Of a stretch of DNA of 24,215 nt, positions 5,553-24,215 are shown piece after piece. Numbering within the stretch: position 1 is the first letter of the stretch; each line of letters starts with the position of its first letter. This stretch comes from a virus. The notes under the pieces were generated by a model that saw nothing but the letters and a program-made list of their open reading frames with translations, made no database searches and was not told the DNA's origin. The position numbers and the translations under genes are program-made. The stretch lies in the IMG/VR virus record IMGVR_UViG_3300036983_000046, positions 1 to 24,215 of that record; one strand, 5' to 3'.

Positions 5553-6358
5553 CAAAGACCACCGCACTCGCGACACCGGAACAGACCGCAGACAAGTACC
5601 CCATCGTATCACCCGGAACAGCCGAGGAAGCAATCCAGATCATCAGCGAGAACCTCGGACCCGAAGGCGCGCAACTCTCAGCACTGGACCGAGTCACAGT
5701 CCCGACCGCCGGAGGACTCGCGTTCACCGTCACGACCGAACGCGGTCCCGAGCCGCAGACCAACCTCTCAGGCATAATCGTGCTTGCACAGCCGCAGAAC
5801 GCCATGTGGGCGGCCAGCTTCGATGAAGCCCCGAACGACCCGCCGGTATGCTTCAGCGCCGACGCCATCACAGGCAACGGAGACCGGTTCCAGACCGGAA
5901 GCCCGTCAGATCAGACCTGCGCGACCTGCCCGTTTCAGCAGTGGGGAAGCGGCCCCGACGGCAAAGGCAAACGATGCCGCAACCTCCGGCCCCTATTCCT
6001 CCTCCAGGAGGGAGACTACCTGCCAATCGTTATCTCAGTCCCGCGCATGAGCCTGAAGCCCCTCACCGCATATCTCACCCTCCTTGCGCGCAAGGGAATC
6101 CCGTACTACGCCGCAGTCACCACGATAGGGCTTGCACAGGACAAGAACGACGCCGGCATCACCTACTCAAAACTCACGTTCGCAATGGCAGACCTCATTC
6201 CGAAAGAGAACCGGCAAGCCATCCGCGATTATCGGGAAGTACTTCGCCGCTCAGTAGCAGCCGCGCGGGCGCCGATCGAAGCCACGCCACACCCGCCAAC
6301 CGAAGGCGACGCAACCGTATTTGACGAGGACGAGGACGCCAACGGACCGCAGGCTTGA
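5549..6358 (+). CDS. zinc-motif phage replication protein, possible ssDNA-binding protein, 269 aa
   Basis: ATG 5549 overlaps the helicase stop (ATGA) and has an AAAGGAG Shine-Dalgarno. A conserved-looking metal site spans CATCPFQQWGSG (Cys124, Cys127) and KGKRC (Cys143), with Cys101 nearby as a fourth ligand candidate. The C-terminus is acidic (VFDEDEDANG), as in many single-stranded DNA-binding proteins that recruit partners through an acidic tail. Proteins with a CxxCPFNQWG-type motif occur beside phage replication genes. I infer ssDNA binding or recombination mediation from context and tail; no enzymatic motif is seen. Confidence 0.65.
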   Translation: MTKTTALATPEQTADKYPIVSPGTAEEAIQIISENLGPEGAQLSALDRVTVPTAGGLAFTVTTERGPEPQTNLSGIIVLAQPQNAMWAASFDEAPNDPPVCFSADAITGNGDRFQTGSPSDQTCATCPFQQWGSGPDGKGKRCRNLRPLFLLQEGDYLPIVISVPRMSLKPLTAYLTLLARKGIPYYAAVTTIGLAQDKNDAGITYSKLTFAMADLIPKENRQAIRDYREVLRRSVAAARAPIEATPHPPTEGDATVFDEDEDANGPQA

Positions 6359-6436: not shown

Positions 6437-8023
6437 ATGATCACCGTCCACCCAGGCACAGACCCCCTCCTCCGCGCTATGTTCGCGCCAAAGGCGCCGG
6501 AGGACGCGATACTTATCTGGACCCTGCCCTCCAAGCACTCGACATGGATACCCAGCACCGACGTCGACATCATCCTTGAGCCGAACTCAGACGCATACTT
6601 CGGAGTAGGAACCCGCGACGCAGACGCCGCGCGCCACTTCGGACGCAGAGCCAGGGGAAAGTCATCAGACGTCACCGGTATAGGGGCCGTGTGGATTGAC
6701 ATAGATATAGCCGGCGCAGCGCACCAGAAGAACCACCTGCCGGCCACGCACGCAGACGCCCTGCAACTTGCCGACGACGCCTTCCACACGCCGCCCTCGT
6801 TTGTCGTAGACTCAGGCCACGGCCTCCACCTTTACTTCCTACTTGACGAATGGCTCAACCTGCGCAACGGCGCCAGAGAGGACACGCAGGCCACGCTAAT
6901 GGGAGTCGCGCAACATTGGCGCGCCACCTGTGCAAAACACGGCTTTGACGCAGACTCAGTTCACGACCTCTCGCGCGTACTTCGCCTGCCCGGAACCATC
7001 AACCGCAAGCTACAGGACGCGCCGAGGCCCGTAACGATAATCACGGCCAACCCCGACGCCAGATACCCGCTGGCACTATTCCAGCAGTGGGCATCACGCG
7101 CCCCGCAGCCGCCCCCCAAGCCGGAACCCAAGGCCAAGCCAGAGCCAGAGCCGGAAGCCACGGACCCCGACGCGCCGACATTCGCAGACATGTGGGAAGC
7201 CCTGTGCGCAGCCGACCCGCGCGCCAAGGCCAGCTTCCTGCACAACAGGCCGGACCTCATGGACCAGAGCCCCTCCAGCTACGACATGTCACTTGCCGCC
7301 ATAGCCCTGCGCGCCGGATGGACACACGCCCTAACGATGCAACTTCTCCAGTACTGCCGCGCGCACCACGCGAACCCGCCCAAGCCCCACGCCCTCCGAC
7401 TCACGATCGACAAGGTAAGCCAGGAAATAGCCACCGCCGCGACCGCGGCGCAGACAGCCGCACAGGCAGCGCCCCAGCCGGCGCCGATCATTGACCACAT
7501 CATACGATACGACTCGACACCGCCGGCCTACGTAATCATCACGCCCGACGGCACACGCATAGCCGCCGGAACCATCGACACAATCACCGACCAACGCAAG
7601 TTCAGGAACGCCATAGCCGCCGGAACAGGCATCCTGCCGCCAGCGATGAAACCGGCAGCATGGGACAAGGCCGCCCAAGCGATGCTAAACACCACCGTTC
7701 ACGAGTCAGCAGGACCGGAAGCCACCGACAACGGGCAGACGCTTTCATGGATACAAGCCTACCTCGAATCAGCGCAAATACACACGACCGCAGCCGACGG
7801 ACTCGCCGCCGGAGAGCCGTTCATATCAGAGGGACACGTTCACATCACCGGCACCGCCCTGCGCGCATGGTTGACCTCGGCACTCGGAGAGCGTACCGAC
7901 TCGCGCCGGCTTGCCCTTGCCCTGCGCGCGATCGACGCCGCCCCCGTCACCGTCGAACTCGCTCCAGACAAGCCGCGTCGAGCAGCTTGGAGGATACCAC
8001 AGCATATCTGGACAGCCAGATAG
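6437..8023 (+). CDS. archaeo-eukaryotic-type primase (RepB/PrimPol-like), 528 aa
   Basis: The N-terminal half carries the AEP primase signature: WIDIDI (Asp88, Asp90) for metal binding, SGHGLHLY (126-133, with the His131 nucleotide-binding motif) and RVLRLPGTINRK (about 180-191). Residues about 225-245 are a Pro/Lys/Glu linker (PKPEPKAKPEPEPEATDPD). The C-terminal 280 residues are helical and unrecognised; no D5/SF3 helicase motifs are visible, so priming and unwinding are separate here. It makes primers for, or perhaps extends, phage DNA. It has its own promoter (6355) and an AGGAG Shine-Dalgarno. Confidence 0.88.
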   Translation: MITVHPGTDPLLRAMFAPKAPEDAILIWTLPSKHSTWIPSTDVDIILEPNSDAYFGVGTRDADAARHFGRRARGKSSDVTGIGAVWIDIDIAGAAHQKNHLPATHADALQLADDAFHTPPSFVVDSGHGLHLYFLLDEWLNLRNGAREDTQATLMGVAQHWRATCAKHGFDADSVHDLSRVLRLPGTINRKLQDAPRPVTIITANPDARYPLALFQQWASRAPQPPPKPEPKAKPEPEPEATDPDAPTFADMWEALCAADPRAKASFLHNRPDLMDQSPSSYDMSLAAIALRAGWTHALTMQLLQYCRAHHANPPKPHALRLTIDKVSQEIATAATAAQTAAQAAPQPAPIIDHIIRYDSTPPAYVIITPDGTRIAAGTIDTITDQRKFRNAIAAGTGILPPAMKPAAWDKAAQAMLNTTVHESAGPEATDNGQTLSWIQAYLESAQIHTTAADGLAAGEPFISEGHVHITGTALRAWLTSALGERTDSRRLALALRAIDAAPVTVELAPDKPRRAAWRIPQHIWTAR

Positions 8024-8957: not shown

Positions 8958-10544
8958 ATGATTGAGAACCGCATATACGGACCCCCAGGCACCGGCAAGA
9001 CGACTTTCCTAACCAACCTTGTCAGCAAGGCCGCCGCGAAGTACGGCGCCGGCAGCGTCATCGTCACCAGCTACACGACCGCCGCCGCGGCTGAAGTAGC
9101 CGAGCGCGCCGGAGAGATTCCCGAGGACAACATAGGAACCCTGCACAAGTTCTGTTATGCCGCCATCAACCGACCGCCCATAGCAGAAACGAAGTCCAGC
9201 CTCCTGAAAGAGTGGAACGAGCACGCGCCGGCCTACCGGATGAGCATGCCCGGATGCAGGGACATCAACGCAGGCCTCGAGTACGGAGAACACGCCCTAC
9301 TCGGAGACGCACTCCTTGCACACGCCACCCTCCTGCGCAACCGCATGATACCGCCCGAGCAATGGCCGGCCAACGTGCAGACGTTCCACGACCTCTGGAC
9401 TTCATGGAAGATCGGAGCCGGATGCATCGACTTCACCGACATGCTCGACATAGCCCTCGCCCAGACCACGGAAGCCCCCTCCTGCCCGCGCGTCATATTC
9501 ACAGACGAAGCCCAGGACTGCACCGCCCTCCAGTTTGCCGTACTCAAGAAATGGGCGCAGACCTGCGAGAGACTGGTGATGGTAGGAGACGACGATCAGT
9601 GTATCTACCAGTTTGCCGGCGCCACGCCGGAAGCGTTTGCCATCGGACAGCCCGGAGAACACGACCACGTCCTGAGCCAGAGCTACCGCGTGCCGCACGC
9701 CGTTTGGGAGAAAGCCTCCGAGTGGATATCTCGAGTACGCGACCGCGTCACCAAGACATACGCGCCACGCCCCGAGCCCGGGTTTGTGCACAGATCGGCC
9801 GCCACCTACAAAGACGGCCAACGGATCCTCGCGGAAGTCACAAAGCAGCTTCAGACATACTCCTCGGTGATGGTAATCACATCCTGCTCGTATATGCTTG
9901 ACCCGATCAAGAAGGCCCTGACCGACGCCGGCGTGCCATTCCATAACCCCTACCGCCTCATCCGCGCGGACTGGAACCCCCTGAAACTACAGAAAGGGAC
10001 CACAATGGCCGAGCGCGTAATGGCGATCTTCGGCCCCGAGATGCACGACCGGAAATGGTGGACACCCGCAGAAGTCGCAGCGTTCGCATCAGTGTTGAAA
10101 GCCGACGGAGTATTCGTCAGAGGAATGAAAGGCAAGGTCGAGAATATCCCGACCGTCAACCTCGACACCCTCTTTGAATACTTCACGCCCGAAGCCGTGA
10201 ACGCCCTCATGACCAACGACCTTGACTGGTGGAACGAGCACCTACTCAACCACGAGACCCAGGCCAAGGCGGCCTACCCTCTCAGGATAGCGCAGAACCT
10301 CTCGCCATGGGCGCTCGACACCACCACCAACAAGCCGCAGGTAATCATCGGAACCATCCACTCAGTAAAGGGAGCCGAGGCAGACGTCGTAATCATGGCG
10401 CCGGACTTGTCGCAGCAGGGAATGGTGGAATGGACAGGAGCCGGACGCGCAGCGATCCGACGCGTATTCTATGTAGGTCTCACCAGAGCCCGGCACGGAG
10501 TCATCCTCCTCCAGCCGGCAAGCCCCATCACCTGTGACATATGA
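8958..10544 (+). CDS. UvrD/Rep-type SF1 helicase, 528 aa
   Basis: All SF1A motifs can be read: GPPGTGKT (8-15), SYTTAAAAE (Ia), DEAQD (183-187, motif II), GDDDQCIYQFAGA (210-222, motif III), QSYRVP (motif IV), TIHSVKGAEADVV (motif V) and FYVGLTRARHGV (motif VI). At 528 aa it is shorter than UvrD or Rep (about 670-720), lacking most of the 1B/2B insertions, which is usual for phage versions. It probably unwinds DNA 3' to 5' during replication or repair. The start has AAGGAG and the AGACCAATG leader. It is the last gene of the rightward block and ends just before the 10548 hairpin. Confidence 0.93.
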   Translation: MIENRIYGPPGTGKTTFLTNLVSKAAAKYGAGSVIVTSYTTAAAAEVAERAGEIPEDNIGTLHKFCYAAINRPPIAETKSSLLKEWNEHAPAYRMSMPGCRDINAGLEYGEHALLGDALLAHATLLRNRMIPPEQWPANVQTFHDLWTSWKIGAGCIDFTDMLDIALAQTTEAPSCPRVIFTDEAQDCTALQFAVLKKWAQTCERLVMVGDDDQCIYQFAGATPEAFAIGQPGEHDHVLSQSYRVPHAVWEKASEWISRVRDRVTKTYAPRPEPGFVHRSAATYKDGQRILAEVTKQLQTYSSVMVITSCSYMLDPIKKALTDAGVPFHNPYRLIRADWNPLKLQKGTTMAERVMAIFGPEMHDRKWWTPAEVAAFASVLKADGVFVRGMKGKVENIPTVNLDTLFEYFTPEAVNALMTNDLDWWNEHLLNHETQAKAAYPLRIAQNLSPWALDTTTNKPQVIIGTIHSVKGAEADVVIMAPDLSQQGMVEWTGAGRAAIRRVFYVGLTRARHGVILLQPASPITCDI

Positions 10545-10572: not shown

Positions 10573-10602
10573 TCACCGACACTTCCGCTTCTTACGCGCC
10601 AT
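10573..10602 (-). CDS. putative 9-residue basic peptide MARKKRKCR
   Basis: After the last appendage gene the minus strand has GGGGAGGTGTTGCTG followed by ATG, nine codons (MARKKRKCR) and TGA, directly before the terminator hairpin. The Shine-Dalgarno is good and seven of nine residues are basic or cysteine. A 9-codon ORF can arise by chance, so this is tentative. Confidence 0.3.
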   Translation of the reverse strand: MARKKRKCR

Positions 10603-10621
10603 CAGCAACACCTCCCCGAGA

Positions 10622-11203
10622 TCAGGAGAAATAGATCGTCAACTGAATAGCATCACACATCGCGAAGTTATTCATCGTAGCCAAATCGCACACGTCGAAC
10701 TTCACATAGGCCGCAGTCAGAAGATCAGCCAACTCGCCGGCATCCAAACCCCAAGTATCACCAACCCCACCAAAGTCATGCGCAACGCAGTCCCCGCCAA
10801 TATCGTGAGGATCACCAAGGCTGCACTTGGAATCAGACCACGCCGGACCGCCACCGGACCCGACCCTCAACTCGACAACCGACATGGGCATATCGCCGCC
10901 GGCCAGCAGCGACACCCCGATACCCGTGACAGTGGAACCAGCAGGAATAGACGACAGATCAAACGTCATTTGGAGGACAGACCCATCAGCAGGATTAGCA
11001 GACGGGAAGACAGTGGCTTTACTCTCATCAGCTTCCAACTCAGCCGAATCGGGATCACTCCACGGAAACAGGCCGGAAGTCGAACCGCCGCCAAGCGACC
11101 CCCAGACAGACACAGGTGACGTAACACCAGAGGACGACGGCCCCTCGGGATACACGTCAGGAACCGCAGCCGGAATGACCGCCGGAACACTTGCAGGTAT
11201 CAT
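10622..11203 (-). CDS. probable virion surface-appendage protein, 193 aa
   Basis: The ATG overlaps the upstream stop (ATGA). The N-terminus has a Pro-Val/Ile repeat (MIPASVPAVIPAAVP) also found in the preceding gene. Residues about 80-190 follow a pattern seen in phage tail-fibre/adhesin beta-sandwich domains: SSIPAGSTVTGIGVSL, then VVELRVGS, then FGGVGDTWGLDAGEL, then FDVCD and IQLTIYF. Such domains are generally receptor-binding or decoration parts. No trimerisation or hydrolase motif is visible. It is the second-to-last reading frame of the late operon, a usual place for host-contact proteins. Confidence 0.6.
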   Translation of the reverse strand: MIPASVPAVIPAAVPDVYPEGPSSSGVTSPVSVWGSLGGGSTSGLFPWSDPDSAELEADESKATVFPSANPADGSVLQMTFDLSSIPAGSTVTGIGVSLLAGGDMPMSVVELRVGSGGGPAWSDSKCSLGDPHDIGGDCVAHDFGGVGDTWGLDAGELADLLTAAYVKFDVCDLATMNNFAMCDAIQLTIYFS

Positions 11204-11550
11204 GTCAGCTCAACCACTCCAGGAACGAGATCACTGCCAAGCACGCGCACGGACCCCACCCACCCGAGCCCGTTGTCATCGTCATAGAACCCGCAGGTAA
11301 AGGTCCCATAGGGAATCGCACCAGACCACGACCCACCACCAGTCGCGCCACCAGTAACAGAATCCCACTCGGCATAGCCGGCGCCGGCAGAAGACGGCTG
11401 GCGGTCGATACCGCCCACCCTGATGTAGCACGACGCCTGCGTTATCGGCGCCTCCGGATCAGTGGAAAGGAGCCGCAAGGTCTGACGACCCTGCGGCTCA
11501 GAGCAAGGAGCAGAAGAAGGAACTACCGATGGAACAAGCTCAGGTATCAC
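11200..11550 (-). CDS. small virion-associated protein, 116 aa, GTG start
   Basis: I chose GTG 11550 because the resulting N-terminus (VIPELVPSVVPSSAP) matches that of the next gene and because GAGGAAG lies ten bases upstream. An upstream in-frame ATG only extends into the overlapping gene. The GTG overlaps the end of the CxxCxxCC gene by 11 bases. The C-terminal part is Gly/Ser/Asp-rich and beta-like (GGSWSGAIPYGTFTCGFYDD). Probably a short decoration or appendage component sharing an anchor with its neighbour; family unknown. Confidence 0.6.
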   Translation of the reverse strand: MIPELVPSVVPSSAPCSEPQGRQTLRLLSTDPEAPITQASCYIRVGGIDRQPSSAGAGYAEWDSVTGGATGGGSWSGAIPYGTFTCGFYDDDNGLGWVGSVRVLGSDLVPGVVELT

Positions 11551-11785
11551 GGCACACTTCCTCGCAGTAGAAATCCTTACACGCGATCGGTTTCTCCGAC
11601 GGCCCAAAGTCGCAATCGTTGCCGACCAGATGAGGACACACATGCGGAACCCACACCCGCAAATATCCCTCGTCTATATCCCACCGCACACCGCGCGCGC
11701 TCAGAAACTCGCGAACCTCGTCACCGTCAACCAGCGGAAACATCAACTCGCGGCAGCAGTCGCCACACCGCCGGCACTCAGGCAC
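11540..11785 (-). CDS. CxxCxxCC (YkgJ-like) cysteine-cluster protein, 81 aa
   Basis: I chose GTG 11785 because GGAGGT lies about ten bases upstream and GTGCCTGA overlaps the previous stop by eight bases. The mature sequence begins VPECRRCGDCCRELMFP and later has HVCPHLVGNDC and KPIACKDFYC, nine cysteines in all. This is the layout of the YkgJ/UPF0153 zinc- or iron-chelating domain: C-x2-C-G-x-C-C, then C-P-x-L, then x-P-x-x-C-x-x-F-x-C. That family probably binds metal, but its role is unclear. Its placement inside a virion operon is unusual; a capsid- or appendage-associated metal protein or a host modifier are both possible. Confidence 0.72.
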   Translation of the reverse strand: MPECRRCGDCCRELMFPLVDGDEVREFLSARGVRWDIDEGYLRVWVPHVCPHLVGNDCDFGPSEKPIACKDFYCEEVCRDT

Positions 11786-12686
11786 GCCGGACCTCCGCAG
11801 ACACCCAGAACGCATCATACGTCTGATCACCAGGCGACACCGTAATCCTGCCACCAGACGCGCCGAGCGGCCAGCCCTGGACAACCTTGCCCTCCATGCC
11901 GGCCACGTTCACCAGATACGTGCCAGCCGCCCACTTCGCCAGCGTGAACGACGTCACAGCGACGAACTCATCAGACAGCTTTAGAATGACGGCAGTAGTG
12001 GCGCCGACGTTGACCGTCGAACCGCCACGAGTAGCCGACAACTGAAAGCTCAGCGTAGTGGGAGTGGCGATCACGTAATACGTCGTGAACACCGTCAGGC
12101 AGTCGACAGTCGCAGACGTCGAGAGCATCACGGTATCACCAACCGTCAACCCGTGAGGAGTCGCGGTCTCGTACACATCAGTAGCAACGACACCAGCAGC
12201 CGACGGCAGCAGGAGCTCCGGAGACGGAACAAAGTCGAACGCGTTTGTCTCAGAATCAGAATCAACATTGAACGCGGCCCCGCCCGGAGTAGCCGAGAAC
12301 TGGAACACGAAATCAGTGAGTCGCGCAGAGTCAATAACGTAGTAATAGACGTTCGCCGTGACCCCACCGCCATCGCCCTCGAACGCGATACGATCACCAG
12401 GAGCCAAGCAATGCGGCAGCACCGTAGTCACCGTGTTCGCGCTATTCTGGCACGTATTCTCTCTGCGCACATGGCTACGCCGAGGAAACGGCCTGAACTT
12501 ATGCACATGCCCGACCACGACCGCCAAATCCTCCAACGCCGAACCGTTCCGCATCGACAGGAGCAACCTCTCCTCCGAGCCGACGCCCAGCGCCGGCACG
12601 TCGATTGTGCGCATAGCACCATCGGCGCCAGTCGCAGCAGGAAAACCGCAGCCGCCCTGCCACAAAACCTCACCACGCCCCATCAT
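11778..12686 (-). CDS. FCCH-repeat virion protein, 302 aa
   Basis: The start ATG overlaps the upstream stop (ATGA). Residues about 82-142 and 169-228 are two copies of a beta-rich module: H-x-L-x-x-G-D-x-V, then YYVI, then FQ-x-SAT-x-GG. This is the pattern of the E1-FCCH-like domain common in phage structural proteins. A third copy is in the neck protein at 16547. The N-terminal 80 residues and the last 70 (GRITVSPGDQTYDAFWVSAE) are also likely beta. It probably forms a head decoration or a tail/appendage part. No enzymatic motif is seen. Confidence 0.68.
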   Translation of the reverse strand: MMGRGEVLWQGGCGFPAATGADGAMRTIDVPALGVGSEERLLLSMRNGSALEDLAVVVGHVHKFRPFPRRSHVRRENTCQNSANTVTTVLPHCLAPGDRIAFEGDGGGVTANVYYYVIDSARLTDFVFQFSATPGGAAFNVDSDSETNAFDFVPSPELLLPSAAGVVATDVYETATPHGLTVGDTVMLSTSATVDCLTVFTTYYVIATPTTLSFQLSATRGGSTVNVGATTAVILKLSDEFVAVTSFTLAKWAAGTYLVNVAGMEGKVVQGWPLGASGGRITVSPGDQTYDAFWVSAEVRRA

Positions 12687-12904
12687 TGCACACCGCCTTC
12701 CTCGGAGGACTCCTCGACAACGACCTCCGTAATCGTAATTCGCGAATCCTCGCGCATAGCTTGAGTGACCTCCGACTCAGGGACGTCCGTGCCAGTATTA
12801 GACCAGAACCGCCCCGACCGCCAATGACCACCATACTGCCCAGCGAGAGACCGCACCACCACTATCTTCTCAGACTTCGCGACAGACGCCTTCTTACCTG
12901 CCAT
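12683..12904 (-). CDS. Mu-like (FluMu N-terminal/HI1506-type) small virion protein, 73 aa
   Basis: I chose ATG 12904 because the product then begins MAGKKASVAKSEKIVVVRSL and GAGTGGGGG precedes it; longer readings run through the terminator. The core GHWRSGRFW, then TDVPESEVT, then DSRITITEVV fits the FluMu N-terminal pattern (x-R-A/S-G-R-x-W, x-V-x-x-x-E-L/V-T, D-x-x-I-x-V). This domain is found next to the major capsid gene in Mu-like phages. Its exact role (head-completion or decoration) is not settled. It overlaps the FCCH gene by four bases. Confidence 0.65.
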   Translation of the reverse strand: MAGKKASVAKSEKIVVVRSLAGQYGGHWRSGRFWSNTGTDVPESEVTQAMREDSRITITEVVVEESSEEGGVQ

Positions 12905-12924
12905 AATACCCCCACTCACAATCC

Positions 12925-12959
12925 AAAAAGGGCCGGACCGAGTAAACCCAGCCCGGCCC
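12925..12959 (-). terminator. Rho-independent terminator after the major capsid gene
   Basis: On the minus strand GGGCCGG and CCGGCCC (12953-12959 and 12930-12936) flank a 16-base loop and are followed directly by TTTTT. It lies 30 bases after the capsid stop and before the next gene. It would cap the abundant capsid transcript, with read-through needed for the downstream appendage genes. Confidence 0.82.
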
Positions 12960-12989
12960 AAGGCAACGGACGACAACCCAGAGCCGACA

Positions 12990-13934
12990 CTAACCAGCCC
13001 CAGCGTTACCCTGTATGCAGAACCACGCCCCAGCGCCGACGTTATACCTCGCCCTCGTGCCGAAGTAGAACATGTCGCGCATGAAGCCGGACTCCGACTC
13101 CTTCTCCAGCGACCCGAACTCAACCGGAACCCTGCTCTGGAAGATCAGCGGCTTGACAACCCCACTGGTAGAGAGCAGGAACCAGTTCCCGTTCGCGACA
13201 GTCGCAGTACTGTAGAGGTACGGAGAGACAATGCACTCGATGTTCATGTCTTTCAGCACCTTTGCCTGCGCAGCGCCACCCGTAGTTGACGGCCACTCAC
13301 CCGAAAGAAGCTCCTTCCCGGTCTGAGCCAGGCACGGCTCAACCAGAAGCAGATCGGGAGTAATACCCATCGGAACGCCAGCGTCATTTTTGAGCATCAG
13401 CATAGCGTTGATGGCGGTCCAGAGCGTAGCCACCGCCAACGCCGCGCCAGTGGGCTTGTTCGACTGCGAACCGGAATCGCCGCTGACATGGTCAGTGTCG
13501 ATAAAGCCCTGCCCGTCGTAACACAGGTACGGAGAAGCAGCAGACCCGAGGGCGCCGGTCAGGAACTCGCAGCAGAGCTGATCGGGATACCTCGCGGCCT
13601 CGATTGCAAGCTGCCGAACCCGCAACTCCAACATCCCGAGCTTGTTATCCTCCATGTCGGAACGAAGGACCCCGAGAGTATTCTCCCAAGTTTTGTTCTT
13701 GATGTTGAAATTGAAATTGGACAGATCACGCGCCTGCCGCTCACCGAGGAACTCGCGAACCTGCGGCACAGCGCCGAGCCACGGATAATCCTCGGAATCA
13801 GTATCGGACGGCACGATCGTACAGATACGCTTGTGCAGCCCCTTAGCGACCTCGTCACGGTACGCCTTCATGAAGATAGCCTTGAGCCCCTTAGTCAGCG
13901 GGCCGGCAGGCAGATCACCAACACCAAACGCCAT
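12990..13934 (-). CDS. Mu gpT-like major capsid protein, 314 aa
   Basis: The sequence matches the Mu gpT family layout: an N-terminal segment ending in VPSDTDSEDYPWLGAVPQ, then REFLGERQARDLSNFNFNI with KNKTWENTLGV, a hallmark of the family. A long central domain follows and a C-terminal MFYFGTRARYNVG. The length is close to Mu gpT (305 aa). It forms the HK97-fold shell of the head. No N-terminal delta domain is visible, consistent with a separate scaffold encoded nearby. It lies between the decoration protein and a terminator, as expected for the most highly made protein. Confidence 0.9.
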   Translation of the reverse strand: MAFGVGDLPAGPLTKGLKAIFMKAYRDEVAKGLHKRICTIVPSDTDSEDYPWLGAVPQVREFLGERQARDLSNFNFNIKNKTWENTLGVLRSDMEDNKLGMLELRVRQLAIEAARYPDQLCCEFLTGALGSAASPYLCYDGQGFIDTDHVSGDSGSQSNKPTGAALAVATLWTAINAMLMLKNDAGVPMGITPDLLLVEPCLAQTGKELLSGEWPSTTGGAAQAKVLKDMNIECIVSPYLYSTATVANGNWFLLSTSGVVKPLIFQSRVPVEFGSLEKESESGFMRDMFYFGTRARYNVGAGAWFCIQGNAGAG

Positions 13935-13971
13935 AACAACACCCTAACCCTTCTCTGGCATCCAGCCAGGA

Positions 13972-14469
13972 CTAAGAGGCCACCGCAGACCACGCGGAAA
14001 TGCGAACGCGACACTTCGTCGCGGCAGTCTGAGTACCTATAAGCTCAACGATCACGCCAACGATGCACGGATGAGCGGGCGCAGCGCGAAGTATCATCCG
14101 CGGAGTATCAGTCCCGGAACCCTCCGAAGCCCACGCCGTCAACCCGAGATCGGTCTGAATTGTGGCAGACGCACAATCGAACTCGAAAACGCCCTCCTGC
14201 CAACAACGAATTTGGCGGTCACCAGCACTCGCCGCACCAGACCCGGAATCCCCCTCGGTGAGATACCGATTATCCAGAGTCTCAGCAGCCACGCCGACGA
14301 ACTGATCACCAGTCGCGCCAGTGGCATACGCCGAGTAGCAGTATCCATCGGTCTTAAGAACGACGATGTCGCCCTTGAAGATCTTCGTGATACCCATGCG
14401 AATCGCCAGGAGATCACCGGCAGCACGCTTGGCATCATGCGCAATGGTAGAAGCAGTGAACGAACCCAT
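13972..14469 (-). CDS. head decoration/stabilisation protein (DUF2190-like), 165 aa
   Basis: The ATG directly follows the stop of the protease/scaffold gene, with GAGGT nine bases upstream. The protein is Gly/Ala/Thr-rich and beta-like. IFKGDIVVLKTDGYCYSAYA, then GDQFVGVAAETLDN, then CWQEGVFEFDCA is a repeated G-D-x-V / F-V-G-V-A pattern seen in phage head decoration proteins and capsid fibres. Its position just before the major capsid gene matches that role. It probably sits on the outer head surface. Confidence 0.72.
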   Translation of the reverse strand: MGSFTASTIAHDAKRAAGDLLAIRMGITKIFKGDIVVLKTDGYCYSAYATGATGDQFVGVAAETLDNRYLTEGDSGSGAASAGDRQIRCWQEGVFEFDCASATIQTDLGLTAWASEGSGTDTPRMILRAAPAHPCIVGVIVELIGTQTAATKCRVRISAWSAVAS

Positions 14470-14922
14470 TTAGGCAACCTCACCCTTCTCCGAGGCCCGA
14501 ACATCATCCTCGGAAACCCCGAGCTTCGCGAACACCGCGCGCTCCTCGGCAGTGAACTCGTCAGTCTCGACCTTCTCGCCGACCATCGGGACCACGCGCG
14601 GAAGGTTCGTCATGAACTGGACAAACGCCTCCATCACAGGCATGTGCCCGCCATCGGCAAACGTGACCTCGGCGGCCCCGTCGACAAGAATCCCCTCCGC
14701 GAACTTCACGCACGCCGGAGGCAACTTGCCCTCCGCAACCCAGCCGGCCAACTTCACCGACGCCGCATCGCGCGCACTCTTGCGCTTGAGAGCAGCGTTC
14801 TCCTGCGCAAGAGGAGTCAGTTGCGCGTCGAACTGCGTCCGAGCCTCGGCAGCACCCTCGGTGCGGCCCATATCACGAGCAGCATCGATAGCAGCCTGAA
14901 CCTCAGGAGAATACTCAGCCAT
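14470..14922 (-). CDS. nested scaffold protein (Mu gpZ-like), 150 aa, in-frame internal start
   Basis: Within the protease gene, ATG at 14922 (Met143 of the fusion) is preceded by AAAGGGG ten bases upstream. It marks the exact junction between the protease and the scaffold domain, beginning MAEYSPEVQAAIDAARDMG. Mu I/Z and lambda C/Nu3 use this arrangement to make extra scaffold. The protein is helical and charged as expected for a scaffold. The internal start is inferred. Confidence 0.62.
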   Translation of the reverse strand: MAEYSPEVQAAIDAARDMGRTEGAAEARTQFDAQLTPLAQENAALKRKSARDAASVKLAGWVAEGKLPPACVKFAEGILVDGAAEVTFADGGHMPVMEAFVQFMTNLPRVVPMVGEKVETDEFTAEERAVFAKLGVSEDDVRASEKGEVA

Positions 14923-15348
14923 CACACCCACACCCCTTTCAGTGACAAACCGAACACTATTGGTGAACGACACACCATCAGCGATACTACTACCAAACGC
15001 ACGCGCCGTCAAGACGCGCGGGAAATCAACGACGGAAACCTCCGCAATCTCGCCGGCACGGCTCAACCCAAGCGACAGACACTTCGTACCCATGGCGCAC
15101 AGAAAATCCCACACAGCACGAGGCCACGATATCTTGCCATACAGCCGCTTGCCATCACGCCGCACGTCGACAAGCCGGCCAAGGCGGCCATCCCACGGAC
15201 TACCAGCGTGCTGCACACGCACAGGCACCTCACCACGAAGCCGGAACGCAGAGATCATCACGTCGAGATCATTCTCAGTAATCACCACCCCCTTGTCAGG
15301 ATAAGACCCCGCCTCAAACAGCAGAGCATCACGCACGACTTCAGACAT
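14470..15348 (-). CDS. prohead protease-scaffold fusion (Mu gpI-like), 292 aa
   Basis: I chose ATG 15348 because GGAGGTAGGGTC precedes it. Residues 1-125 form the protease: RVQHAGSPWDGRLGRL with candidate catalytic His47, KCLSLGL with Ser92, and GEIAEVSVVDFPRVLTARAF, the usual E-x-S-V-V-x-x-P motif of prohead serine proteases. Residues about 143-292 form a helical scaffold region (MAEYSPEVQAAIDAARDMG, then ENAALKRKSARDAASVK). Mu gpI has this organisation and cleaves the scaffold and itself during head maturation. The catalytic assignment is from motif position only. Confidence 0.85.
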   Translation of the reverse strand: MSEVVRDALLFEAGSYPDKGVVITENDLDVMISAFRLRGEVPVRVQHAGSPWDGRLGRLVDVRRDGKRLYGKISWPRAVWDFLCAMGTKCLSLGLSRAGEIAEVSVVDFPRVLTARAFGSSIADGVSFTNSVRFVTERGVGVMAEYSPEVQAAIDAARDMGRTEGAAEARTQFDAQLTPLAQENAALKRKSARDAASVKLAGWVAEGKLPPACVKFAEGILVDGAAEVTFADGGHMPVMEAFVQFMTNLPRVVPMVGEKVETDEFTAEERAVFAKLGVSEDDVRASEKGEVA

Positions 15349-15352
15349 GACC

Positions 15353-15424
15353 CTACCTCCGAACCACAAGAACCAGGACCACGATCACAACGCCGATGAA
15401 AGTAGCAATCTCCATCCAGTCCAT
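15353..15424 (-). CDS. 23-aa membrane microprotein in the lysis cassette
   Basis: The ATG at 15424 overlaps the stop of the candidate holin gene (TGATG) and follows GTGGGGGG. The 23-residue product is MDWMEIATFIGVVIVVLVLV ending VRR: one almost pure hydrophobic helix with a basic C-terminus. Its TAG stop lies inside the Shine-Dalgarno of the protease gene. Overlap on both sides suggests a coupled real gene, perhaps a second holin-like or pinholin-like peptide or an antiholin. Confidence 0.6.
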   Translation of the reverse strand: MDWMEIATFIGVVIVVLVLVVRR

Positions 15425-15726
15425 CACAACCCCCCACTCTCTTTCGCCGCCTTCGCGGCAGCAAGAACAGCGTTCGCCGCCGCCTCCGCAGAAGCCTTCA
15501 CCGCAGCCGCCGCCTCACGGGTATCACGGCGCCGGCACTCGTCACAATCAACTATATGCTTGTCAAGACTCGCCTTGATTCCAGTCTCAAGCCCCTCAAT
15601 AACCGTATTCTGCACAGACAGTTGCCGCCCTACCACGTCAACCATCAGCTTAAAACCGTAACCCAGCGCGCCAGCCATCCCGACCATGCCGCCAAGAGCG
15701 GCACCCATAGACGTATCAAAGGCCAC
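15424..15726 (-). CDS. candidate holin, 100 aa, GTG start
   Basis: I chose GTG 15726 because GGGGGG lies 8-13 bases upstream and 15 bases separate it from the amidase stop; the longer ORF start lacks a Shine-Dalgarno. Residues about 8-30 (GAALGGMVGMAGALGYGFKL) form a single transmembrane helix. It is followed by a CDEC motif and a long Ala-rich amphipathic helix (about 65-98). One membrane helix plus a cytoplasmic tail directly after the endolysin gene is the argument for a holin or other lysis-control protein. Confidence 0.58.
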   Translation of the reverse strand: MAFDTSMGAALGGMVGMAGALGYGFKLMVDVVGRQLSVQNTVIEGLETGIKASLDKHIVDCDECRRRDTREAAAAVKASAEAAANAVLAAAKAAKESGGL

Positions 15727-15740
15727 GAGAGCACCCCCCA

Positions 15741-16247
15741 CTAAATACCGTCGAGCCACCGTCTCACAATACCAGAAAACAGCACCCAGGGAAACTCTCG
15801 CGGATCACTCTTACGCCCACGAGGCAGAGCAATGGCCCGATGCGACGTTATACAACCATCAGACAAGTCGAGGCCGAATTCCTCCACCAGCCAGGCACAT
15901 AATTTGCCACTCGCCTCAACCTGCGCCCCCGGCCACTCGTCACCATCGAAATGCTCATGCTCAATGCCTATACTGATCTCGTTGACATCAGACCGACCGC
16001 CAAACTTCGACTTACCAGCGTGCCACGTATAGAACGACTTCATATCAGGATTCAACTTGACGATCACACCAGCCTTCGACACCATGAAATCGGCAGACAC
16101 GCCCGACGCCTCATTCGTAAGCCACGCCACCCCGCCCTGCATAGACCCGCCACTCGAATGAAGCACGATCACCCGAACCGGCAACTTCCGAGGGCTCAAG
16201 TTTTTGGTAGCGAACACGGTCCAGCCAGGAAACGGAACCTTATGCAC
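15741..16247 (-). CDS. N-acetylmuramoyl-L-alanine amidase endolysin, 168 aa
   Basis: This is an Amidase_2 (T7-lysozyme/AmpD-like) domain. IVLHSSGG carries the first zinc ligand (His30), SHRAIALPRGRKSDP carries the second and third (His136, Asp148), and FYTWHAGKSKFGG (His76) and IGIEHEH lie between, all at the usual spacing. It has no separate cell-wall-binding domain and no signal peptide, so it depends on a holin for release. I prefer GTG 16247, which overlaps the previous stop by eight bases (GTGCATAA) and has GGGGG upstream; ATG 16295 is the longest alternative. Confidence 0.9.
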   Translation of the reverse strand: MHKVPFPGWTVFATKNLSPRKLPVRVIVLHSSGGSMQGGVAWLTNEASGVSADFMVSKAGVIVKLNPDMKSFYTWHAGKSKFGGRSDVNEISIGIEHEHFDGDEWPGAQVEASGKLCAWLVEEFGLDLSDGCITSHRAIALPRGRKSDPREFPWVLFSGIVRRWLDGI

Positions 16248-16563
16248 TCGCGACCCCCGACAACCCGACAGCCTCATCACGAACGCGATGGACAAACACC
16301 TTCAGGACAGTGTAATTAGACCCGTCACGCGCAAACACGTCATCAACGATTATGCCACTGTCGGCAGCCGCAAAGAACTTGAGCGACGGGCGCGCAAGCC
16401 CAAGGACCTCAGTATCATCCAGCATAGTCCGCATAGTGCCACTGTCGAGAACCTGAACAACGCACACAGCCGAGCCGGCGCCACCACCGGCCAGTTGAGA
16501 GAACGTAAGGGTCTCGCCAATCGCCGTCACGGCAGTCTTATACCTCTCAGCTATCACTGTCAT
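16240..16563 (-). CDS. putative head-tail joining (neck) protein, 107 aa
   Basis: ATG 16563 has GGGGG six bases upstream and overlaps the preceding gene by 17 bases; longer readings are shadows of that gene. The product begins MTVIAERYKTAVTAIGETLT and continues TMLDDTEVLGLARPSLKFFA, then DSGIIVDDVFARDG and YTVLKVFVHR. That is the small beta-barrel pattern (R-x-L-x-F, D-x-V-x-x-D-G-x-x-Y-x-V) typical of phage neck proteins between portal and tail. Its position after the portal supports this. Exact family uncertain. Confidence 0.55.
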   Translation of the reverse strand: MTVIAERYKTAVTAIGETLTFSQLAGGGAGSAVCVVQVLDSGTMRTMLDDTEVLGLARPSLKFFAAADSGIIVDDVFARDGSNYTVLKVFVHRVRDEAVGLSGVASA

Positions 16564-17497
16564 AAGCCCCCGCATCAGCCCCATGCACAGCATACTCGTC
16601 AGCGTCGATATCGAAAACACCGCCGGACGGGTCCGACGATCCGAGAGCCACATCAGCAGCGAGGGACGCATCCTCGATAACCATCCTCGCCAACCGCTGA
16701 GCGTTCAAATCAGCCCGGCCCTGATAATCAGCCGCCGCCGCGGTCGACATGCCCGTATCGGCAGTCACCTTCGCGACCTTAGCCGCCTCCACGAGAGCTT
16801 GAGCCTCCACCAAATCCGCATCAGCCACAGCCTTCGCATTTTCCGCAGCCGCCATCGTAACAGCGTGATCATCCCGAGCCTCAGCCAAAGCCTTCTTCAA
16901 GGCATCTTCGGACTTCACGGCAAGACCACCGGCATAACCGTTGACGGTGAAAGGAGCAAGAACAGCCAGACCGCGCGCGATCAACGGATCCCCACTCTCA
17001 GGAACGCCACCGACCGCGACGCCGCCAGCAGTCACCGCCTCAGCCCAGCCCGGCACACGCCGCAACGCGTTCAGGAACTCGCCGGCAATCACCTCGATTA
17101 TCCCGTACTCGCAAGCCGCCTCGTACGTCGACTTCGCCGTAGAATCCAGAGTAGCTTCCAGCCCCTCCTTGATCTCCGTAATCATCGAATCCAGATCGGC
17201 ATCATACGCAGTACGCACGGAATACGCGTTCGCGCCATCACCAGTAATCGCGAAAGCACCACCGCCACGAGTAGCCGAGAACTGAAACACATCCGGATTA
17301 GTGACACCAGACACCCAGTACGGAGTCGAGGCCGTAACCCCGCCAGTCGTTCCGGTGAACTCGATAACATCACCGACCGCAAGGCCATGCAGAAGCGCCG
17401 TCACGGTATCGCCACTATTCGCCATAGTGCAAGAAACCGTGCCAGCAGGCAACTGAAGCCGCCGCTTGATATCATTCCGCGCAACAGTAATAGCCAT
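16547..17497 (-). CDS. putative head-tail connector with FCCH-like insertion, 316 aa
   Basis: The ATG overlaps the portal stop by one base (TGATG). Residues 1-20 (MAITVARNDIKRRLQLPAGT) and the helical region about 95-160 look like a gp6-type connector. Residues 28-86 form an E1-FCCH-like module (LLHGLAVGDVIEF, then PYWVSG, then VFQFSATRGGG). The second half has long Ala-rich helices (about 200-275) and an acidic C-terminus. At 316 aa it is far longer than a simple connector (about 100-150 aa), so the extra modules may be surface-exposed. Assignment rests mainly on position after the portal. Confidence 0.5.
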   Translation of the reverse strand: MAITVARNDIKRRLQLPAGTVSCTMANSGDTVTALLHGLAVGDVIEFTGTTGGVTASTPYWVSGVTNPDVFQFSATRGGGAFAITGDGANAYSVRTAYDADLDSMITEIKEGLEATLDSTAKSTYEAACEYGIIEVIAGEFLNALRRVPGWAEAVTAGGVAVGGVPESGDPLIARGLAVLAPFTVNGYAGGLAVKSEDALKKALAEARDDHAVTMAAAENAKAVADADLVEAQALVEAAKVAKVTADTGMSTAAAADYQGRADLNAQRLARMVIEDASLAADVALGSSDPSGGVFDIDADEYAVHGADAGAYDSDS

Positions 17498-18780
17498 CAG
17501 GGAGCCACCTTTACACGCACATCGTTGCCATTCCCGACGGGGCCGTCATGTTGCCGCGTCACGGACGGCACAATCCCGCGCGCCGGCGCCGGCCCAGCGC
17601 CCTCCAACCCAAGGAACGTCCGAATCCAAGGATCGTCAGGCTTTAGGACGCCGGCAGTGATCATTTCCGAGACCACCTTCGACAAGACCCCTATCTCGCG
17701 GTCCTCCATCGGCCCAAGCGTGAACAGAGGCACAGCAGCGTCGGCCCCGAAGTTATACCGCACCAGTGGCCGCAAAATCTGTTCGCGAACGACAGTCTCC
17801 TCCAGATCACGCTTCAGCGTCATAAGACACATGTGCAAGACGTCCAGGTGCACCTTCGCCATCGCGAACGACCCGACGCCGTTGTTGTCAGTGTCAGTAA
17901 TCAGCGTCATATTGAGAATCGCCTTCGCAATCTCCTTATCGTGGAACCCCACCGCCAACCTGTAGCCAACGTCGCCCTGCCGGATGGTCTCAAGAAGCTC
18001 CACGGCGCAATCGTCAGGAATCACCACGGCACTCTGCTGTTGAATAGCCGAGAGAACACGCAGAAACTCCTGCTGGGCAGCCAAAGGAGTGCCACGCTTG
18101 TAAGAGCCCTTCGCAGTAGGAGAGCCGTATTTTTCGAGGTAGAGATTCCAGAAGCGAACGAGGAAATCCTTAGACCACCAATTCCGATAAGCAGCCGTCA
18201 GATCAGAGTGGCCATACGGATTGCCGTACTCGGGATGGTAGGTGTACACAACGAACCGCGACCGATCGACAGTCTTGTCAGAGACAAGCTCACGCAAAGC
18301 CACGACGTTTTTGTACGCGTCGACATCGAAGCCCCAATGCGAAGGGTCCATAGGCTTGATGTAGCTCAGATACCACTTACCGGACCACTCGCCGGACTTG
18401 CACACATCCCAGACCAAGCTCTGAATAGAGTAACCCTTCGCAATGGCATCACAGACGTTCCACAGCACCGTGAGCATGGAACCGTCGATAGCCTCCAGCG
18501 CCCACCGGCAGAACTCGACGACGTCACTAGACGTGCCCTCGTCAGACTCCACCTTCCACCCGCGCGACAGCACAGCCGACTTCTTGATAGACAGGCACGC
18601 CTTGACCTGCCCATCCTCCTGCATCCGATCGTAAAGCTCCAAGCCCTTACTCGCAGCCAGCGCATCGGGATTGTCATATCGCCCGAACGCGCCGATCAGA
18701 TCAGGAGCCGGCACATCCCCCTTCGGAGGGACAGACCGATCACGACCAAAGACCGACTTCACCCAAACTGGCACCTTCAC
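17497..18780 (-). CDS. Mu gp29-like portal protein (DUF935), 427 aa
   Basis: I chose GTG 18780 because GGAGGG lies eight bases upstream and the N-terminus then reads VKVPVWVKSVFGRDRSVPPK. This overlaps terL by 41 bases. The family pattern is clear: LYDRMQEDGQVKACLSIKKS, then KPMDPSHWGFD, then YTYHPEYGNPYG, then LVRFWNLYLEKYGSPTAKG with FHDKEIAKAIL and MAKVHLDV, as in Mu gp29 and other DUF935 portals. It forms the dodecameric DNA channel at one capsid vertex and docks the terminase. At 427 aa it is slightly short for the family (about 500). Confidence 0.9.
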   Translation of the reverse strand: MKVPVWVKSVFGRDRSVPPKGDVPAPDLIGAFGRYDNPDALAASKGLELYDRMQEDGQVKACLSIKKSAVLSRGWKVESDEGTSSDVVEFCRWALEAIDGSMLTVLWNVCDAIAKGYSIQSLVWDVCKSGEWSGKWYLSYIKPMDPSHWGFDVDAYKNVVALRELVSDKTVDRSRFVVYTYHPEYGNPYGHSDLTAAYRNWWSKDFLVRFWNLYLEKYGSPTAKGSYKRGTPLAAQQEFLRVLSAIQQQSAVVIPDDCAVELLETIRQGDVGYRLAVGFHDKEIAKAILNMTLITDTDNNGVGSFAMAKVHLDVLHMCLMTLKRDLEETVVREQILRPLVRYNFGADAAVPLFTLGPMEDREIGVLSKVVSEMITAGVLKPDDPWIRTFLGLEGAGPAPARGIVPSVTRQHDGPVGNGNDVRVKVAP

Positions 18781-20209
18781 GCTTAGACCCTCCCACGGCA
18801 GGCATCCCGCCACCAGACCCCCCATACATCATCACCGATTGTATGCCCGCGATGCTCGCCGTGTCAACGAAGTCATCGTGACGCCCGGGAAACTCCAAGA
18901 GCTCATGCTCGACAACAGGTAGATATTCCCCATTCTTCCGGTGAAACACCTTCCCGCACTTGTAACGAGCCAGAATAGTTGTAGCCCGAGTGATCTTGTC
19001 ATTTTCAGCCGGCACAGGATACACCGGAAGCCCGTCGGCCGCAGCCGAAGCCACCAAATTCGTCCCAAAAGTCTTGTTCTCAACATACTGACACCCCGGT
19101 GACCACAACGCGAAAGCGTCACGCAAAGCCCCCAGATGGTCCTCAACCCCCAACTGACGACGGAACACGTCGAGAAGAATCAACTCAGATCCAGGACACA
19201 GCCCCCACGTCGAGATAACGAAGTAATCCGCCCTCTGAGACGACGACCCGTTAACGTCGACAGTCTGAAACACGAACACCTCAGCCTTCTGGTAACGAAC
19301 CTCGCCGTCGAGGCCGCCAAGGACGTAATACGTGTCCTCAACCCAGAAATACCGGAACCACTCGCGACGAAATACCCGACCACCAGACGACTCAGGCTCC
19401 TGCTGATGAAGCGCCTGCCAAAAATTGACAGGACCACTGCTCATAGCCAACTCCTGAGCCTGCAACTCCTCCTCAGAGTAGAACTCAGGCCACAAAGGCG
19501 CCCCCTCAGGCCGACCGAGCGGATCGTCATCACCCAACGACCTCGCCGGAAGGCTCAAAACCTCCCACTCCTCACCCACCCCATCCTTCATCCGAGACAC
19601 CAGCCGGCCAGTCTGATCATCCTTATCCCACCGATTATGAATCAGCACGATAGCACCGCCAGGAAGAAGCCTAGTCCGCACCGCAGACATGTAGTTCGCG
19701 TCGACAGTGTCGCGCACAGCCACCGAACTCGCCTCCTGCCAATTCTTATACGGATCGTCTATCACCGCGTAGTTCGCACGCCGGCCAGTCACAGCAGACA
19801 TTATCCCCACAGCACGCACACCACCACCAACCACAGCCGGACCAGCATCCACCAGCCACCGATCGACAGCCTTCGACTCAGTCGATACCACCCGGCCAGT
19901 GATCTTCGGAGACCAATACGAGTAGAATTGACGTGCAGCAGCCGAGTGTTCCCTGATTAGATCGTCACCGTAACTGGTGAGCAAAATCTCAGCACTCGGG
20001 TTCCGCATCAGACACCAAGCCGGAAAACATCTGCTGCACAAATATGACTTCGCATACCCAGGCGGGATGTTGATGATCAACCGTCGCACATCCAACCGCT
20101 CCACCGCCTCCAACTTCGCGCAGATCAGATCAATGTGTCGACCCTCGACCCACACAAAAGGACTCACCAACTTCGCATACTCCTTCAGACGATGGTAAGC
20201 ACGCGCCAT
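18740..20209 (-). CDS. terL: terminase large subunit (TerL), 489 aa
   Basis: The ATPase has Walker A NIPPGYAKS (about 47-55), Walker B YAVIDDP (147-153) and the coupling motif HNRWDKDDQTG (about 191). The RNase H-like nuclease has its metal-binding acids at FQTVDV (Asp318), YVENK (Glu377) and GRHDDFVDTAS (Asp445/446). So both motor and nuclease look intact. I chose ATG 20209, with AGGTGAAG before it, since the protein then begins like other TerL proteins (MARAYHRLKEYAKLVSPF). It overlaps terS by 80 bases in another frame. Confidence 0.93.
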   Translation of the reverse strand: MARAYHRLKEYAKLVSPFVWVEGRHIDLICAKLEAVERLDVRRLIINIPPGYAKSYLCSRCFPAWCLMRNPSAEILLTSYGDDLIREHSAAARQFYSYWSPKITGRVVSTESKAVDRWLVDAGPAVVGGGVRAVGIMSAVTGRRANYAVIDDPYKNWQEASSVAVRDTVDANYMSAVRTRLLPGGAIVLIHNRWDKDDQTGRLVSRMKDGVGEEWEVLSLPARSLGDDDPLGRPEGAPLWPEFYSEEELQAQELAMSSGPVNFWQALHQQEPESSGGRVFRREWFRYFWVEDTYYVLGGLDGEVRYQKAEVFVFQTVDVNGSSSQRADYFVISTWGLCPGSELILLDVFRRQLGVEDHLGALRDAFALWSPGCQYVENKTFGTNLVASAAADGLPVYPVPAENDKITRATTILARYKCGKVFHRKNGEYLPVVEHELLEFPGRHDDFVDTASIAGIQSVMMYGGSGGGMPAVGGSKREGASLGEVGLWS

Positions 20210-20675
20210 CTTCACCTGCTCCCTCGTCACATTCGCCAACTCGGAAGATCCCGTCAAGGACCTCAAGCTCCGATTCGCTGAGCCGCCCGAGAATCCCACC
20301 CAATACACCCCCCTCCGATACCTCACCAACACCCAACAACAACCGCTGAGGAGCCTCTACACCCCAAATCTTGCGCACGTCAGCAAGCACACCACGCATT
20401 ATCTCCGCATACCTCGGGTCACGAGTCGATTCCCATTCCCGCAACGCGTCCGAATACAATGCCGTTAACTGCCCAGTCTGACGAATCGCATGAATCCGAG
20501 CAATCTCGCCAGCCTCAGACTGCACACGCGCCGTCAAACACTCGATGACACCCTCGACACTCCTCCGAGGAAGCCCCACCAACTCACTTAACTCCTCCTC
20601 GGAAGCCCCGTCAGATATCCCCGCCGCAATCCTGCGCTCCAACTCAGCCCTGCGGAATATGCTCAATGATTCCAT
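20130..20675 (-). CDS. terS: probable terminase small subunit (TerS), 181 aa
   Basis: The gene directly precedes terL. The N-terminus from Met20675 (MESLSIFRRAELERRIAAG) leads to a helix-turn-helix-like region SEEELSELVGLPRRSVEGVI, suitable for binding a pac or cos site. A helical oligomerisation region follows (about 70-130), then the acidic C-terminus that usually contacts TerL. The tail (after about residue 155) is unusually long and Cys/Gly-rich because its frame runs through the terL start. No Shine-Dalgarno stands out, but a small ORF ends two bases upstream. Confidence 0.72.
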   Translation of the reverse strand: MESLSIFRRAELERRIAAGISDGASEEELSELVGLPRRSVEGVIECLTARVQSEAGEIARIHAIRQTGQLTALYSDALREWESTRDPRYAEIMRGVLADVRKIWGVEAPQRLLLGVGEVSEGGVLGGILGRLSESELEVLDGIFRVGECDEGAGEDGACLPSSEGVCEVGESFCVGRGSTH

Positions 20676-20677
20676 AC

Positions 20678-20770
20678 CTACACTATACAACACCACCAGC
20701 AGAAATGCCACGATGCGCGCGGGGGCACTCGCTTATAGGCTTTCTTCTTCTTCAAAACACGCATCATCAT
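20678..20770 (-). CDS. possible 30-aa basic peptide upstream of terS
   Basis: From ATG 20770 the minus strand reads MMMRVLKKKKAYKRVPPRAS then WHFCWWCCIV and stops two bases before the terS ATG. AGAAGA precedes the first ATG. Since terS lacks its own clear Shine-Dalgarno, translational coupling from this ORF would make sense. Composition is odd (basic start, Trp/Cys end), so it is only a candidate. Confidence 0.3.
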   Translation of the reverse strand: MMMRVLKKKKAYKRVPPRASWHFCWWCCIV

Positions 20771-20892
20771 ATCTTCTTTCAACGACGGTTCCTCTATCCT
20801 AACGCCAACTTCAACGACTGTAACCACCGTGCCTATCTGATAGACTGCACCGGAACGACAACGACCGTGACCACCGTGTCAACCGCGGCTTC

Positions 20893-23835: not shown

Positions 23836-24118
23836 CCCCGTGATCGGTCAGTGTGTGTCGGTCCGCTTGCCTTCGGCGAGCGGGCCGGTTATCCTCCGTG
23901 TGGTAGCGGTCCGCCCGGATGGCGCCCTCTGTTGTGTGTCCGCGCTGTCGGCTCCGCAGCCGAAGTCCTGTTTAGGCGCATGGTCCGGCATAGGCAGCGT
24001 GCGCGTGCCGGTAGACAAAGTATCCGGCATATTCCCCACTTCAGACGCGGGGCCGTTCCGCCGCCCAGCGTGCTACCCGCCCTTGCTGTCGCAGGAGTGT
24101 GCAGAATGTGGCGCGTGA
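23825..24118 (+). CDS. hypothetical protein, 97 aa
   Basis: ATG 23825 has AGGAG nine bases upstream and overlaps the previous stop. The protein is probably beta-rich (VSVRLPSASGPVILRVVAVR) and ends with a Cys pair (LLSQECAECGA). No family recognised. Its last 30 bases are also positions 1-30 of the window because the contig is circular; the following gene (18-161) overlaps it. Confidence 0.7.
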   Translation: MTSSPVIGQCVSVRLPSASGPVILRVVAVRPDGALCCVSALSAPQPKSCLGAWSGIGSVRVPVDKVSGIFPTSDAGPFRRPACYPPLLSQECAECGA

Positions 24119-24215
24119 TCAGTTGCGAGTTTGAGGACCTGCCCTGGCATCTGCGCGCATGGGTTTACCTGCTTGCCGGTTCACTCGCATTCGGGGCAGG
24201 TTGCAAGGCATACGA
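24089..24215. repeat. terminal direct repeat, right copy
   Basis: Identical to positions 1-127. It should be counted once in the circular molecule. Confidence 0.93.
24106..24215 (+). CDS. partial second copy of the 47-aa membrane protein gene
   Basis: The frame starting MWRVISCEFEDLPWHL is the same gene as at 18-161 and is cut by the window end. It is not a second gene but the overlap of a circular assembly. Confidence 0.85.
   Translation, partial: MWRVISCEFEDLPWHLRAWVYLLAGSLAFGAGCKAY

Follow-up and report, generated by a model that had tools for sequence, protein, structure and literature searches.

Can a virus of bacteria make do with a head and a neck, and no tail? The question is raised by a viral DNA record of 24,215 nt, analysed here at its full length (the window; IMG/VR record IMGVR_UViG_3300036983_000046, G000). 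Its minus strand carries, between 20711 and 10622, genes for a TerS-like protein (terminase small subunit), TerL (terminase large subunit), portal, adaptor-like and stopper-like neck proteins, amidase and holin candidate, followed by protease/scaffold, decoration-type protein, major head protein, a small protein and three further products, which we name by their coordinates (11778, 11200 and 10622). To our knowledge, HK97-fold viruses of bacteria are all either tailed or satellites that take the tails of others. The reading that we favour, with a probability of roughly 0.4, is that the window is a complete genome from a new lineage, whose members would be small double-stranded DNA viruses of bacteria that do not integrate and have a Mu-type HK97-fold head and a neck, no tail tube, and no need of a helper. 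If such a virus does replicate, package and lyse by itself with no room for a tail, then either the tail is dispensable or no other tail-borrowing satellite described so far is as self-sufficient as this one; both outcomes would inform the origin of tails and of satellites, and the question can be tested on a defined gene set.

Closure, relatives and the space for a tail

Bases 1–127 of the window are repeated exactly at 24089–24215, so the record closes to ∼ 24,088 bp (∼ 24.1 kb). It is a circle or a circularly permuted genome and not an ordinary tail-less piece of a bigger one. Scans of viral contigs yielded nine contigs of the lineage: the window, G001 (24,914 bp, near complete, ends not closed), G006 (23,581 bp) and the fragments L003–L008. 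The ends of G006 overlap by 153 bp at 99.3% identity and its SNF2 helicase gene crosses the join, so that this genome is closed at ∼ 23.4 kb. The covered relatives share the order TerS, TerL, portal, adaptor-like, stopper-like, amidase, holin candidate and protease, which continues, wherever covered, with decoration protein, capsid, the family of the 11778 product, variable proteins and an opposing UvrD helicase. The exception is L007, which has a different small open reading frame (ORF, 3303–3770) at the amidase place. The remaining half of the genome, covered by L005 as well as by the window, G001 and G006, is taken up by replication genes and a mostly non-coding stretch.

The head is of the Mu-type HK97 fold, with a Mu-type portal (PF06074), a gpT-type major head protein (PF10124) and an I-type protease (phrog_976). 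These genes, together with TerL (phrog_38) and the decoration protein (phrog_1731), are present as an earlier, sequence-only reading of the window had claimed. That reading had also listed terS, neck-like and lysis genes; here the amidase is borne out by its family match (PF01510), whereas position and conservation are the basis for assigning TerS, holin and both neck-like genes. None of the window's structural ORFs matches the gpF/MuF minor head protein, and in every relative covering this place the adaptor-like gene comes next after the portal gene.

Family matches revealed no tail tube, sheath, tape-measure or baseplate gene in the window, in agreement with the sequence-only reading. Neither matches to the tape-measure, tube and sheath genes of a siphovirus or myovirus nor a large spare ORF is found, and the tail-less order recurs in G001, G006 and the fragment L007 (L005 shows the other genome half). 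Lack of recognised tail genes as proof by itself was rejected on the example of G007 (IMGVR_UViG_3300032360_000025, uncultured, 38.4 kb). This genome resembles the window in its replication module, TerL (33%), Mu-type portal and a related capsid protein, but its post-capsid region consists of ∼ 10–12 kb of large genes (a neck1 match, then 340, 236, 486, 777 and 774 aa), compared with 1.7–3.3 kb here. G007 probably carries its tail genes at that place, and they are mostly unrecognised by PHROGs. Since this control makes missing recognition weak evidence, the tail-less case is built on the lack of space and on its recurrence from genome to genome.

The earlier argument that a tail would not fit into 24 kb fails as an argument from size, because phi29-like podoviruses fit a tail into 17–27 kb; podoviruses with complete genomes of 16.7 kb (PMC10586137) and 18.5–27.2 kb (PMC9965433) are described. 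Space is nevertheless short in the window because replication takes ∼ 9 kb and another ∼ 4.9 kb, around the circle join and upstream of TerS, is nearly gene-free. From the stop of the capsid gene to the stop of the helicase gene there are 2,445 bp in the window, 3,265 in G001, 1,731 in G006 and 2,036 in L007. Across the lineage this gap holds one lineage-specific jelly-roll protein (the 11778 family) and one or two proteins that vary and are in part lectin-like; the G006 gap encodes two proteins only, of 210 and 254 aa. With antisense ORFs set aside, no structural protein lacking an assigned role exceeds 422 aa in the window, G001 or G006, the 422-aa one being in G001. In the window, the plus-strand ORFs 14071–15399 and 16583–17965, antisense to head genes, were taken as spurious without a coding test. 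There is thus no tail space in three full-length or near-full-length genomes and one co-linear fragment, and a closed, repeatedly tail-less lineage makes the observation stronger than first stated.

A fragment, a deletion variant or a mis-closed assembly of a normal tailed phage would also lack tail genes. A length of 127 bp is a common assembler k-mer length, and the end repeat could in principle be an artefact of the assembly graph. Against this, the tail-less order is kept in independent contigs whose capsid and portal proteins are 52–68% identical, and G006 likewise closes into a circle, with one of its genes spanning the join. Given the window's end repeat, the order in the relatives and the closed G006, we rejected an artefact as very improbable.

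Neck-like genes and the post-capsid cassette

Position, size and conservation suggest that the two genes following the portal gene encode an adaptor and a stopper. The adaptor-like protein of the window consists of a conserved N-terminal domain, an FCCH-like repeat, an Ala/Glu/Lys-rich stretch of variable length and a C-terminal EY motif that the adaptor-like proteins have in common, as if stretch and motif made up a tether with a binding tip. In the window the EY motif is encoded within 16547–16620, near the C-terminus and behind a stretch of very variable length; coiled-coil periodicity in this extension was not above that of shuffles. Among the adaptor-like proteins, those of the window and L005 contain the FCCH-like repeat as an insertion, and those of L007, G001 and G006 lack it. 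Within it, a stretch of 27 bases is shared at 96% identity between the 11778 gene (12021–12047) and the adaptor-like gene (17261–17287). The shared stretch and the restricted insertion suggest a domain copied between two virion genes. L005 encodes two tandem stopper-like relatives at 12222–12875 (hhalign probability 96%, E 1e-9), possibly with a third behind them.

One or two FCCH-like repeats interrupt the core of the 11778 family, which has ∼ 122 residues; its shared repeat aside, searches found the family in this lineage only. A first fold from a three-row alignment (pLDDT 51) was discarded. AlphaFold modelled the G006 copy (210 aa) with core blocks mostly at pLDDT ∼ 70–88 and a poorly predicted insert. 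The model is a single jelly roll, with VIA-align Z scores of 9.3 to the Ena2A fibre subunit and 8–9 to picornavirus coat proteins, which are barely above the level reached by unrelated models; Foldseek gave no PDB match at E 0.001. Of the five products that the sequence-only reading had put forward for comparison with podovirus adaptor and nozzle folds (10622, 11200, 11778, 16240 and 16547), structure prediction covered the 11778 family. No podovirus nozzle or tail-tube structure was among the matches listed, which is not evidence of absence. The product is a candidate neck, vertex or fibre protein, the predicted fold giving no function. Matches of the 11778 and 16547 products to the ‘tail fiber’ family phrog_9370 span only the ∼ 70-aa repeat, which in turn weakly matches the barrel domain of phage endosialidase tailspikes (E 0.013).

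Beyond the 11778 gene the relatives diverge. At the 10622 place G001 has the 422-aa protein, which lacks a family match, and a LamG-domain protein (PF13385, 2.3e-19); G006 has a LamG-like protein with a match to the virion-protein family phrog_8510. Searches of solved structures with the 10622-type, 11200 and G001 422-aa proteins gave nothing useful. A likeness of the 422-aa protein to polysaccharide deacetylases was seen by eye, found no support in family and structure searches, and is not claimed. Because they are exchanged between relatives and include lectin-type domains, the variable genes fit a role as attachment proteins. In L007 a small CxxCxxCC protein of the zinc/iron-chelating type (8204–8482; PF03692, 2.7e-5) adjoins this cassette.

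Self-sufficient virus, tail borrower or stub tail

For a self-sufficient head-and-neck virus we envisage that DNA would be packaged via the portal and retained by the two small neck proteins (adaptor-like and stopper-like). The short cassette of the jelly-roll protein and one or two exchangeable proteins of glycan-binding type would stand where the tailed sister has large tail-type genes, and its products would sit on the neck or capsid and hold the head against the host envelope. DNA would exit directly through the neck, and the virus would replicate and lyse the cell unaided. We favour this reading because the window has its own replication genes and amidase as well as exchangeable attachment-type genes, and because an integrase was not found among the ∼ 37 window ORFs scanned with Pfam. 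It is further supported by sisters with the same head and replication type that do carry tail genes, namely MMP17 and probably G007. The Meiothermus phages MMP7 and MMP17 (33 kb, Mu-type head, contractile tail) share with the window a Mu-type portal and protease, the phages also having gp36 annotations; their UvrD helicase is 33% identical over 98% and their primase-polymerase and SSB-like proteins are related. Unlike the window, MMP17 has annotated sheath, tape-measure and baseplate genes and an SPP1 gp7-type head morphogenesis gene, and its head proteins gave no tblastn match to those of the window at E 0.01. More tentatively, we suggest a self-sufficient HK97-fold virus of bacteria without any tail, infecting by a bare portal–neck vertex with glycan-binding proteins mounted on capsid or neck, and derived from tailed Mu-head phages by swapping the tail module for a short attachment cassette.

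Several points weigh against a self-sufficient virus. We know of no established self-sufficient tail-less HK97-fold virus of bacteria, nor did literature searches produce one, and the prior is low for that reason. The lineage is known from sequence alone, and its DNA would have to pass the envelope without the help of tail or ejection proteins. In comparisons based on shallow alignments, the adaptor-like protein found no support from Mu gp36-type profiles, the stopper-like protein none from neck1-type profiles, and neither matched a solved structure.

Head and neck-like genes without a tail are the hallmark of capsid-forming satellites, which suggests a satellite with its own head and neck and helper-made tails, or, as with MiniFlayer, a virulent satellite carried on the neck of its helper. 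Non-integrating and plasmid-like forms are published, namely MiniFlayer (PMC10690885) and cf-PISP (PMC13230959), the latter as two satellite-plasmids of 15.8 and 11.1 kb. Like the window, the capsid-forming phage-inducible chromosomal islands (PICIs) and cf-PISP have their own head and packaging genes and no tail genes. The published ones, however, integrate or carry plasmid functions, whereas the scanned window ORFs gave no match to an integrase or to plasmid partition/replication genes (parA/repA), and no satellite regulator was recognised in the window. The capsid set of the capsid-forming PICIs belongs to PF05065 (PMC13230959) and the window's capsid to PF10124, alongside replication and lysis genes of its own. 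MiniFlayer and MulchRoom, both Streptomyces satellites, have head and adaptor genes and no helper-independent long tail. MiniFlayer also shares with the window the absence of an integrase, and the post-capsid cassette is placed similarly to its adsorption module. In contrast to the window, with its primase-polymerase and SNF2 and UvrD helicases, these satellites lack primases and have terminal repeats of ∼ 1–1.6 kb; by tblastn the window proteins have no match in MiniFlayer and a weak one in MulchRoom, to TerL only (E 0.001). A satellite agrees less well with the full set of replication genes (primase-polymerase, two helicases, nuclease, SSB-like protein) and with an amidase of its own. A tail borrower should moreover have no need of exchangeable lectin-type proteins, and these variable genes stand where sister phages have large tail-type genes. 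We regard a satellite as rather unlikely, though it ranks second.

Third, and unlikely in our view, is a minimal podovirus whose stub tail is formed by the adaptor-like, stopper-like, 11778-family and variable proteins, all too diverged to be recognised. The small complete podoviruses cited above, the unrecognised putative tail proteins of G007 and the resemblance of the FCCH-like repeat to a tailspike barrel all leave room for it. The phi29-like podoviruses are similar in genome size, but phi29 has a full collar, knob and appendage set, and neither such proteins nor space for them was recognised in the window: the tail appendage protein of phi29 alone has 691 residues, compared with an unassigned structural set of ∼ 1,140 aa in the window (both neck-like proteins included) and ∼ 840 aa in G006. 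The 11778 core models as a jelly roll and its listed matches include no nozzle type, which, as noted above, does not show that a nozzle is absent. The satellite and the stub-tail podovirus, the two options of the sequence-only reading, are both kept as live, and the self-sufficient head-and-neck virus, which it had not considered, seems somewhat more likely than either.

Other features of the genome

Table 1. Features of the window, with coordinates, strand and supporting matches.
Feature	Position	Strand	Evidence and remarks
127-bp terminal direct repeat, left copy	1..127	no strand	exact identity with 24089–24215
VRR-NUC / Holliday-junction-resolvase-type nuclease	2786..3067	+	phrog_93 5.1e-19
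SNF2-type helicase	4029..5552	+	phrog_62 6.2e-94
SSB-like conserved replication protein (putative name)	5264..6358	+	start probably near 5546; phrog_23155 6e-44, unknown function
Primase-polymerase	6437..8023	+	phrog_2478 7.5e-21
UvrD-type helicase bounding the structural module	8958..10544	+	PF00580 6.6e-22; 53–59% identical in relatives
Variable protein, attachment candidate	10622..11203	-	relative in L007 (36%); replaced in G001, G006
Variable protein, attachment candidate	11200..11643	-	no family or structure match
11778 family, jelly-roll core with FCCH/endosialidase-barrel-like repeats	11778..12686	-	in 4/4 genomes covering its place
Small protein after capsid gene	12683..12907	-	C-terminal part conserved in L007; weak phrog_10420
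Major head protein, Mu gpT-type	12990..13934	-	PF10124 2.6e-60; 52–68% identical in L007, G001, G006
Head decoration-type protein	13972..14469	-	phrog_1731 7.2e-8
Head maturation protease/scaffold, Mu I-like	14470..15369	-	phrog_976 1.6e-9; PF10123 1.2e-4, under Pfam cut-off
Small membrane-type protein, putative holin	15424..15759	-	position kept in L007, L008, G001, G006; no family match
N-acetylmuramoyl-L-alanine amidase (endolysin)	15741..16295	-	PF01510 9.5e-23
Putative stopper-like neck protein	16240..16563	-	107 aa from internal Met; conserved directly after adaptor-like gene
Putative adaptor-like neck protein	16547..17497	-	directly after portal in window, L005, L006, L007, G001, G006
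Mu-type portal protein	17497..18825	-	PF06074 1.1e-63, phrog_113 5e-73
Terminase large subunit	18740..20332	-	phrog_38 2.6e-80; ORF bounds, true start probably further in
Putative terminase small subunit	20130..20711	-	upstream of TerL; 6 relatives, 38–59% identity; no convincing family match
127-bp terminal direct repeat, right copy	24089..24215	no strand	exact identity with 1–127

The amidase and the holin candidate (15424–16295) sit within the row of head genes, between the stopper-like and protease genes. The plus strand carries the replication module (VRR-NUC nuclease, SNF2 helicase, SSB-like protein, primase-polymerase and UvrD helicase). This module is common to many phage contigs of 30–100 kb, tailed phages among them, and the SSB-like protein is kept in the replication modules of many phages. 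TerL profile scans returned generic phages, and no prophage or host was found. An IS3-family transposase (L222 6400–7329) has entered the gene-free region of G006, with imperfect inverted repeats of 33 nt nearby; as a host marker it was uninformative, its best plasmid matches being ∼ 51–57% identical and from unrelated genera.

The long, nearly gene-free region upstream of TerS (20712–22577 in the window) contains 19-bp perfect inverted repeats and direct repeats. Its gene-poor counterpart in G006 (L222 5516–9028) has two perfect 23-bp inverted repeats and direct repeats; neither the window nor the G006 region gave an Rfam match. In the gene-poor region of G001 a CxxCxxCC look-alike (L101, 23242–23535) was recognised by eye only. 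It is possible that the gene-free region upstream of TerS serves as an origin or packaging region.

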